NCBI GenBank assembly: GCA_001567505.1
Contig: LLEU01000030.1
Location: forward strand, 1 to 64,000
DNA from: Acidobacteria bacterium OLB17
GTDB lineage: Bacteria > Acidobacteriota > Blastocatellia > Pyrinomonadales > Pyrinomonadaceae
DNA length: 64,000 bases
Direction: 5' to 3'
Shown here: positions 17,024-19,063 of the stretch, piece by piece
How positions within the stretch are numbered: position 1 is the stretch's first letter
How the letters are laid out: the number at the start of each line of letters is the position of its first letter
Notes under the pieces: generated by a model
The model's input: the letters and a program-made list of their open reading frames with translations, nothing else
The model's database searches: none
What the model was told of the DNA's origin: nothing
Made by a program: the position numbers and the translations under genes

Positions 17024-19063
17024 ATGAGACCGATCAAACACGTTGAAAAAGGCCTTAGCTTCATTGCGGGAGCGGCTTTCAATGCCGTCAAAAGCGTTAA
17101 CCAGTTCAAACCGAATCCGTCGTTCACACCGAAATGGGCGGACAAACCTATCCTGAAATCCTGGCAAAAGACAAAGCCGACGCTTGGGTTTCCGCGTACC
17201 ACGGATTCGCTCTGCCCACAGTGCGTCATCGAGGCTCGCGAAGAGATCCTTTCGGGCAAGAAGGATGTTTCGGTGCTCGTGAACGAGAAGGTCGGCGAGA
17301 TCAAGGCGCAGATCATCGAGCGCGACAATCAGGTCTGGATGATCAAAGAATGTCCGACCCACGGCAAGATCGAGGATATGATGGCGATCGACGCGGGCTT
17401 CTTAAAGCACGTCGAGTCGCTCTTCCCGGGCCGCGATATGGAAGCACACAACGACGAGAAGCTCCACAATCACGGCTCTTCGTCGGTCAAGTACGGCCGC
17501 GGCGCCGTCCTTACGGTCGATCTTACGAATCGCTGCAATATGATGTGCGATCCGTGCTTTATGGATGCGAATCAGGTCGGATTCGTACACGAACTCTCGA
17601 TGGAGGATGTTCGAGAGATCCTCGATAATGCGATCCAGATCAAGCCGCGTCGCCAGATGTCGGTGCAGTATTCCGGCGGTGAACCGACGATCAGCCCGCA
17701 CTTCATCGAGGCGATCAAATACGCACGCAAGGTCGGATACAACTCAGTACAGGCAGCGACCAACGGTATCGAGTTCGCAAAATCGAAAGAATTTTGCCGC
17801 GAAGCCGCCGAAGCCGGCCTTCGCTTTGTCTATCTGCAGTTCGACGGTATCGGCAATGATGCGAACTCACACCGCCAGATCGGCAACCTCTTTGACGTAA
17901 AGCTTCGCGCGATCAACAACCTTCACGAAGCGGGCGTTGATATCATCCTCGTTACGACACTCGTGAACGGTATCAACAATGACCAGGTGGGGGCGATCAT
18001 CCGTTTTGCGATGGAGAATCCGAAGAAGATCTCTTTCATCGCGTTCCAGCCGGTCTCTTTCACGGGCCGCGACGAGCACATTACCGAGCAGCGTCGCCTG
18101 CAGCAGCGTTACACGCTCTCGCATATGGCTCTCGACGTCAAGAAGCAGCTTGGCATTACGGAGCCCACGCGTGACTGGTTCCCGCTTTCGCTGATGGGAG
18201 CATTTGCGGATTTCGCGGACGTCGTTCACGGCGAAGATTCGGATTGGGGCCAAGTCTCCTGCGGATGCCACCCGAACTGCGGTGTCGGTACGGCCTTGAT
18301 GATCAACAAAGAGACGGGTGACATGGCTCCGGTGCCGCGTTTTCTTGACATTAAAGGGCTTGTCAAGGATATGCAGCACATCTCGGATACGAATCGCGGC
18401 AAATGGTTCTCAAACATTATGATGGGCCTTGCATTGCTGAAGAATTACGACCCGTACGGCGCACCGAAGAGCCTTACGCTCGGCGCGATCTTGAAGAAAT
18501 TCGATAAGTCATTCGGACTGTCCGGCAAGGACTACGGCAAGGTCGGGCCGGACCGCACGATCGAGGACGTCAAAAAGCGTCGTCAAGACCCGTGGAACTT
18601 CTTGTTCATCGCGGGTATGTGGTTCCAGGATCTCTTTAACTATGACTTCCGCCGGACGGAGATGTGCATCATCCCGTACGGTACGCAGGAAGGTGAGATC
18701 TCGTTCTGTGCCTACAACACAGGTATCGGCTGGCGCAATATCATCGAGAATATGCACCAGAACGCGACCGTTGCGAAGTGGTACAAGGAACACGGCCGCC
18801 ACGAAGTGTTTGCTCGGGGCAAACACGTCGAGCTTGATTCGACCGAGCACGACCTTAAGCTGAATGCCGTCGATCTCACGCGTCCGAACAAGCCGCACAT
18901 GGAAGGGCCGAAGACCGCTGCTGAAGAAATGCAGATGATGCGCAAACTCTATCAGGAAATGGTCATGAACAAGAACCAGATCAAGGGCGACGATCTCGTC
19001 CAGATCGGTGGGCTCAAACGCGAGAAGAAAGAGCAAGCTAAAGAAATGGCCGTTGCAGAGTAG
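17024..19063 (+). CDS. Tes/MJ0619-like radical SAM enzyme (candidate membrane-spanning lipid synthase)
   Basis: 679 residues. The radical SAM cluster motif is C171-NMM-C175-DP-C178, with the SAM-binding GGEP at 218-221. Extra cysteines suggest more metal sites: C64/C67 (SLCPQC), C110 (KECPTHG), and C413/C415/C419 (CGCHPNCG). The stretch LVNGINNDQVGAIIRFA...FQPVSFTGR (about 313-349) closely resembles what I know of archaeal tetraether synthase (Tes, MJ0619 family), which joins lipid tails through C-C bonds. Acidobacteria of subdivision 4 are known for iso-diabolic acid, so a role in membrane-spanning lipids is plausible but inferred. The nearest Shine-Dalgarno-like GGAG is 20 bases from the ATG, unusually far. 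It stands alone, followed by a strong terminator. Confidence 0.82.
   Translation: MRPIKHVEKGLSFIAGAAFNAVKSVNQFKPNPSFTPKWADKPILKSWQKTKPTLGFPRTTDSLCPQCVIEAREEILSGKKDVSVLVNEKVGEIKAQIIERDNQVWMIKECPTHGKIEDMMAIDAGFLKHVESLFPGRDMEAHNDEKLHNHGSSSVKYGRGAVLTVDLTNRCNMMCDPCFMDANQVGFVHELSMEDVREILDNAIQIKPRRQMSVQYSGGEPTISPHFIEAIKYARKVGYNSVQAATNGIEFAKSKEFCREAAEAGLRFVYLQFDGIGNDANSHRQIGNLFDVKLRAINNLHEAGVDIILVTTLVNGINNDQVGAIIRFAMENPKKISFIAFQPVSFTGRDEHITEQRRLQQRYTLSHMALDVKKQLGITEPTRDWFPLSLMGAFADFADVVHGEDSDWGQVSCGCHPNCGVGTALMINKETGDMAPVPRFLDIKGLVKDMQHISDTNRGKWFSNIMMGLALLKNYDPYGAPKSLTLGAILKKFDKSFGLSGKDYGKVGPDRTIEDVKKRRQDPWNFLFIAGMWFQDLFNYDFRRTEMCIIPYGTQEGEISFCAYNTGIGWRNIIENMHQNATVAKWYKEHGRHEVFARGKHVELDSTEHDLKLNAVDLTRPNKPHMEGPKTAAEEMQMMRKLYQEMVMNKNQIKGDDLVQIGGLKREKKEQAKEMAVAE

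Follow-up and report, generated by a model that had tools for sequence, protein, structure and literature searches.

The window, by which we mean the whole stretch of 64,000 nucleotides analyzed, derives from a member of the Pyrinomonadaceae (Acidobacteriota subdivision 4) whose assembly (89.7% complete) encodes one full-length Tes-type gene. This gene, P0001, is an ATG-initiated open reading frame of 679 amino acids, and its best NCBIfam model is tetraether synthase (Tes, NF045702). The first-pass annotation had proposed a Tes/MJ0619-like radical SAM enzyme, and the profile search agrees with this in part: Tes is the best model and is matched over nearly its whole length (positions 2 to 483 of 486), but the score of 325 bits lies under the curated equivalog cut-off of 450 (relative L031, 328.8). 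The TrsS model (NF045646) gives 210 bits in two stretches and does not reach its cut-off of 490. A Pfam scan of P0001 identified the Radical_SAM domain and the HMPTM zinc ribbon, and no B12 domain. The best solved relative is the Methanocaldococcus jannaschii tetraether synthase (MjTes; PDB 7TOL/7TOM; phmmer, 7.8e-64), with 32.0% identity by blastp (8e-70). The reading frame and the motifs noted earlier (C171xxxC175xxC178, F341QPVSFTGR349, C64/C67, and C413/C415/C419) are all found at these residues. The motifs do not reflect chance, because near-full-length relatives within the same genus are 84 to 96% identical and more than 150 alignment columns are invariant over 20 diverse subfamily members. 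Among named contigs, those of Pyrinomonadaceae/Blastocatellia MAGs come closest, at up to 94% identity. The features of the locus are as follows.

17024..19063, + strand: P0001, radical SAM protein of a Tes-like subfamily without the [4Fe-4S]N cluster (open reading frame, profile, sequence and fold matches)
17030..17101, + strand: predicted amphipathic N-terminal helix, residues 3-26, preceding the Tes-homologous part (AF2 model)
17213..17224, + strand: CxxC (C64, C67), rubredoxin-like mononuclear iron site (alignment; role from PMC9433317)
17351..17362, + strand: CPTH (C110, H113), remainder of the rubredoxin-like site, C33xxH36 of MjTes (alignment)
17462..17485, + strand: LHNHGSSS, the place of the Tes [4Fe-4S]N cysteines (C73, C77, C80), with the cysteines absent and a 7-residue gap (alignment)
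17534..17557, + strand: CNMMCDPC (C171, C175, C178), radical SAM [4Fe-4S] cluster (Pfam, alignment)
18044..18070, + strand: FQPVSFTGR, SAM-closing loop, Q268, S271 and R275 of MjTes (alignment; PMC9433317)
18260..18280, + strand: CGCHPNC, with C413xC415 and C419, a C-terminal [4Fe-4S] ligand, C338 of MjTes (alignment)
18617..18619, + strand: M532, labile Met ligand of the C-terminal cluster, M439 of MjTes (alignment; role from PMC9433317)
18665..18679, + strand: C548 (C-terminal cluster) and Y552, Y459 of MjTes (alignment)
18707..18709, + strand: C562, C-terminal cluster ligand, C470 of MjTes (alignment)

The MjTes ligands were taken from Lloyd et al. 2022 (PMC9433317) and mapped onto P0001 by MAFFT alignment. 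As a check on the numbering of the MjTes fragment, thirteen positions were compared and all had the expected residue, with C98 deduced from the CX3CX2C pattern. Four groups were compared, namely the P0001 group (A, n = 46), a paralogue (B, n = 5), canonical bacterial Tes (C, n = 15), and short TrsS-like proteins (S, n = 8). All 46 members of group A retain the radical SAM CX3CX2C cysteines, the three C-terminal cluster cysteines with Met439 and Tyr459, and the loop residues Q268, S271, and R275 (MjTes numbering). The rubredoxin-like site is present in 45/46, and its spacing in P0001 is longer than the C9X2C12X20C33X2H36 of Tes. None of the three [4Fe-4S]N cysteines (C73, C77, C80), which in Tes form the site together with a His, occurs in any member of groups A and B (0/51), in which the loop is shortened; the first-pass annotation did not mention this loss. 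The reading of the extra cysteines as Tes-like stands for C419, the sole member of C413/C415/C419 that matches a Tes cluster ligand (C338 of MjTes), but fails for C413 and C415, which are a feature of the subfamily (51/51 in groups A and B, 1/15 in group C, and 0/8 in group S). Across the 80 named loci, FQPVSFTGR and CGCHPNCG are kept in every case, and a CxxxCGxC motif occurs in none. Group B is approximately 50 to 54% identical to group A, lacks the [4Fe-4S]N cysteines in 5/5, and has Tyr459 in 4/5. Group C is 34 to 39% identical to P0001 and retains every site including [4Fe-4S]N in 15/15, except for S271 (2/15), while group S keeps [4Fe-4S]N and has Met439 and Tyr459 in 2/8 each.

An AF2 model of P0001 built from 79 sequences (pTM 0.81, mean pLDDT 73.9), which replaces a poor one from 17 close sequences (pLDDT 49), is predicted to adopt the Tes fold over its whole length. 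The match to 7TOM (VIA Z 26.5, 3.5 Å, 440 residues, target length 498) covers model residues 55 to 593 and all domains, and the runner-up, MoaA, scores Z 18.8 over 242 residues. Confidence is low (pLDDT <50) in the cluster loops and in part of the C terminus. The helix at residues 3 to 26 has a block pLDDT of 86 to 95, and its hydrophobic moment exceeds that of shuffled sequences (p < 0.05) in 80% of 76 sequences, which are related and thus not independent. We propose that the protein makes contact with the membrane through this helix.

MjTes is therefore the closest characterized homologue both by sequence and by fold. P0001 shares with Tes/GDGT-MAS MJ0619 full-length homology, the rubredoxin-like site, the radical SAM cluster, the SAM loop, and the C-terminal cluster, including the labile Met ligand and the Tyr close by. 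It differs in lacking the [4Fe-4S]N cysteines, in the extra CxC, in an N-terminal extension of ∼55 residues that contains the amphipathic helix, and in a longer C terminus; identity is 32%, the score falls below the curated cut-off, and the lipids of the host class are iso-branched rather than isoprenoid. The canonical acidobacterial Tes of the Koribacter/Solibacter type (group C) belongs to the same superfamily and is sometimes encoded next to a P0001-type gene, but it keeps [4Fe-4S]N in 15/15, and the four members scanned all score at or above the Tes cut-off. TrsS-like proteins (NF045646, group S) share the radical SAM core and the rubredoxin-like cysteines with P0001, whereas they retain the [4Fe-4S]N cysteines and mostly miss the C-terminal Tes features, and the 3 scanned match the first ∼300 positions of the Tes model only. 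The Mss enzymes of Thermotogota and Bacillota have been proposed to form the same type of product and are described as having the catalytic architecture of Tes (PMC13274423). Maximum likelihood analysis placed groups A and B in one clade (UFBoot 100), which is nested in group C, and set A, B, and C together apart from MjTes (UFBoot 100); the tree was rooted on group S by choice, and group A alone is not monophyletic. By these sequence characters, P0001 is a member of a distinct subfamily of Tes relatives that has lost the [4Fe-4S]N cluster.

The second paralogue without this cluster (group B, L044-L048; ∼53%) occurs in other Pyrinomonadaceae and in other families. It was not found in the window's assembly, and the close relatives G249, G338, and G374 likewise have one match each. 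Two contigs titled Gemmatimonadetes and Betaproteobacteria (L164, L175) carry the gene at 68 to 74% identity, which indicates either mislabeled bins or transfer.

Nearly all Blastocatellia and Terriglobia genomes searched carry the subfamily, which is also common in Vicinamibacteria but absent from 63 Holophagae genomes. In draws from the whole phylum, matches that include groups B, C, and S were found in 87/149 genomes at E ≤ 1e-20 and in 210/395 at 1e-15. The window's own class has the gene in 53 of the 54 genomes listed, and 165 further genomes, unlisted and without a match, were taken from the listing order to lie outside this class. The names Terriglobia, Vicinamibacteria, and Holophagae, for the classes of G139, G125, and G027, follow from tentative genome identifications: we take G125 to be Luteitalea pratensis, G516 Koribacter, G123 C. 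thermophilum, G559 A. capsulatum, and G385 T. saanensis. Within Terriglobia, 386 of 397 genomes match at E ≤ 1e-60, or 374 after removal of 12 with a canonical-type score only; the other 11 have no match, a few perhaps falsely, as scoring was confined to the top two candidates of each genome. All 68 genomes of the family of G442 have a match, two of them canonical only (66/68 remaining), and 219/237 do at 1e-40 with drafts down to 50% completeness included and types not separated. Vicinamibacteria yielded 91/126 genomes at E ≤ 1e-60, with types not separated, and no match in 35. The full-length gene was found in 0/63 Holophagae genomes, four of which have a short relative of 26 to 30% identity. 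The P0001-type gene is the only Tes-family homologue at E ≤ 1e-15 in G559 and G385, and it occurs at 71% identity, with no canonical Tes, in the three Chloracidobacterium-like genomes searched. A canonical score in the absence of the subfamily gene was seen in six Terriglobia-class genomes (G442, G654, G551, G601, G629, and G659). Plasmids in PLSDB hold only relatives of 23 to 28% identity, in 8 records.

No operon partner is conserved across families, as judged by ORF clustering of 131 loci >7 kb among L037-L177. The neighbors of P0001 are divergent or unrelated: a phosphoglucosamine mutase-like gene and DivIC on the minus strand, and a TonB-type outer-membrane protein downstream. Further along the window (24228-26875, + strand), a PIG-L deacetylase ORF (24228-24926) overlaps an ORF in another frame (24854-26875) with a NEW3 domain, and together they resemble a single long gene interrupted by a frameshift. 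Local associations with MoaA, SufT/ErpA, and an unnamed radical SAM protein are limited to a few families. In two other Blastocatellia families (L072:4764-5864 and L075:4577-5623), the gene is directly preceded by that for the unnamed protein, which has no listed NCBIfam model above cut-off, and SufT-like and ErpA/IscA-like Fe-S maturation genes lie directly downstream in two lineages (L150:7864-9375 and L137). Group A and canonical Tes genes occur together in 17 genomes, 13 from the family of G442 plus G069, G073, G121, and G516. In five of the 17 they are on the same strand within 12 kb (L241, L242, L239, L055, and L063), the canonical gene standing downstream of the P0001-type gene either directly or at a distance (0.43 kb in G624, 0.51 kb in G594, 3.8 kb in G121, 6.1 kb in G073, and 11.3 kb in G516). 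In the other genomes with both genes, these are mostly on different draft contigs.

Iso-diabolic acid has been reported in subdivisions 1, 3, 4, and 6 of the seven surveyed, and in Koribacter in the form of tetraesters (PMC13274423, 2026). The distribution of the subfamily matches this published occurrence. The remaining three surveyed subdivisions include 8, 10, and 23. The acid is also made by relatives of the source organism, Pyrinomonas methylaliphatogenes (PMC4644332) of the same family and Chloracidobacterium (PMC12816986) of the same class, and it constitutes 11.8 to 30.4% of the fatty acids of six Edaphobacter strains (PMC11354219). Most subdivision 4 cultures are described as containing iso-diabolic acid and its ethers and no brGDGTs (PMC13274423). 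High iso-C15:0 contents are reported for S. corallicola and A. pedis (PMC8841776), and the Holophagae genomes matching them have no P0001-type gene; in these bacteria, therefore, the precursor is present and the gene absent. The phylum-level correlation between gene and lipid is weaker than the counts suggest, because it follows phylogeny.

P0001 probably couples two iso-C15 chains to form ester-linked iso-diabolic acid lipids. The first-pass annotation had put the gene forward as a candidate for membrane-spanning lipid synthesis, and a candidate it stays, consistent with the retained lipid-coupling cofactors, the acidobacterial host, and a distribution that tracks iso-diabolic acid. If the mechanism of MjTes can be transferred, SAM would be cleaved at the C171/C175/C178 cluster, and the 5′-deoxyadenosyl radical would abstract a hydrogen from the end of the first lipid chain. 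The resulting carbon radical would then be held by a sulfur atom of the C-terminal [4Fe-4S] cluster (C419, C548, C562, and the labile M532), and a second SAM would generate a radical on the second chain that attacks the carbon held there to form an sp3-sp3 bond. We infer that this reaction takes place, that its substrates are iso-C15 ester phospholipids, and that the N-terminal helix brings the protein to the membrane. Loss of [4Fe-4S]N would remove an exposed surface cluster and could suit aerobes. Several observations weigh against this explanation. The score of 325 bits is under the Tes cut-off of 450, the Tes homologue MA_1114 gave no GDGTs when tested, and Tes homologues are present in non-producing Halobacteria (both PMC8941075). 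A possible counterexample is S. usitatus, reported to make brGDGTs but no iso-diabolic acid (PMC10087280), although its presumed family, that of G442, mostly carries the gene. Further, the gene has no conserved operon partner, it has no match in 35/126 Vicinamibacteria-class and 11/397 Terriglobia-class genomes, and Mss, a different family, could make iso-diabolic acid here.

One unlikely alternative is that P0001 is the brGDGT synthase proper and couples iso-C15 dialkyl (diether) lipids instead of ester lipids. Zeng et al. named an E. aggregans homologue (32%, 4e-61) for brGDGTs using MA_1486, not MjTes, as the query (PMC8941075). Group A is 30 to 34% identical to MjTes, and group C, at 37 to 44%, fits the values for Koribacter (42%) and Solibacter (40%); the 32% of the E. 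aggregans homologue fits group A and not group C. MSL synthases are also reported not to distinguish ester from ether (PMC13274423). On the other side, brGDGT production is much rarer than the gene, with most cultures of subdivision 4 reported to lack brGDGTs, and DUF2229 of the ether enzyme Ger/PlsA is absent from all 15 Acidobacteriota genomes tested, the window's included (Thermotoga maritima control positive; the test covers Ger/PlsA, not ElbD).

A lipid-acting enzyme with another reaction, such as cyclization, cross-linking, or mid-chain chemistry on iso-diabolic acid, is improbable: the Met and Tyr at the Tes reaction center and the full C-terminal cluster are kept in 46/46, there is no B12 domain in the Pfam scan, and P0001-type genes are the only Tes-type genes in some hosts of the iso-diabolic acid type. 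The radical SAM enzymes GrsA/B do form lipid rings. The related radical SAM enzyme Gms makes GMGT (PMC11186832), and the subfamily has its own CxC beside the C-terminal cluster and a second paralogue (group B) in the same family. We consider a non-lipid function (pterin, tetrapyrrole, peptide, or TrsS type) very improbable, despite the TrsS match, weaker NirJ and MoaA matches (NCBIfam), and a Pfam zinc ribbon named for the old assignment of MJ0619 as an HMPTM pterin methylase. These matches either are confined to the radical SAM core or have lower scores than Tes, and the paper on the MjTes structure (PMC9433317) rejects the pterin assignment. Least credible of all is the idea that iso-diabolic acid is made by an Mss-type enzyme, with the P0001 gene a redundant or silent relative. 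The diabolic acids of Thermotogota and Bacillota are products of Mss (PMC13274423), and Mss matches were reported in 11 of 97 Acidobacteria MAGs (PMC11868695); however, the latter are Black Sea MAGs of which few are positive, and neither G559 nor G385 has another homologue at E ≤ 1e-15.

The involvement of Tes in acidobacterial lipid synthesis is not in itself a new idea. Acidobacterial homologues were proposed for brGDGTs by Zeng et al. in 2022 (PMC8941075), and the enzyme joining the two chains in Acidobacteria was called still unknown in the same year (PMC10087280). What is added here is the resolved subfamily, its lost cluster, and its matching distribution. A literature search by title and beginning of abstract, with most subscription journals and preprints outside its scope, returned no account of the subfamily, of its missing cluster, or of a tested acidobacterial synthase. 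Beyond the probable coupling of iso-C15 chains by P0001, we tentatively suggest, as a broader and rather more doubtful scheme, that Acidobacteriota have two tail-coupling enzymes. An ancestral Tes with four metal sites would make brGDGTs from diethers, and a derived, CxC-bearing subfamily, in which the exposed [4Fe-4S]N cluster was lost as an adaptation to air, would make ester-linked iso-diabolic acid in amounts that can reach or exceed a quarter of the membrane acyl chains.

Many soil Acidobacteriota have iso-diabolic acid as a main component of their membranes, and brGDGTs, which are in wide use for the reconstruction of past temperatures, are probably built from it. If the two-enzyme scheme is true, the producers of iso-diabolic acid and those of the brGDGT climate proxies among soil bacteria would be predictable from gene content. 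If the subfamily is the iso-diabolic acid enzyme, Tes chemistry would not depend on the second auxiliary cluster and would proceed in aerobes as well, with implications for the electron supply and the oxygen tolerance of the tail-coupling reaction.
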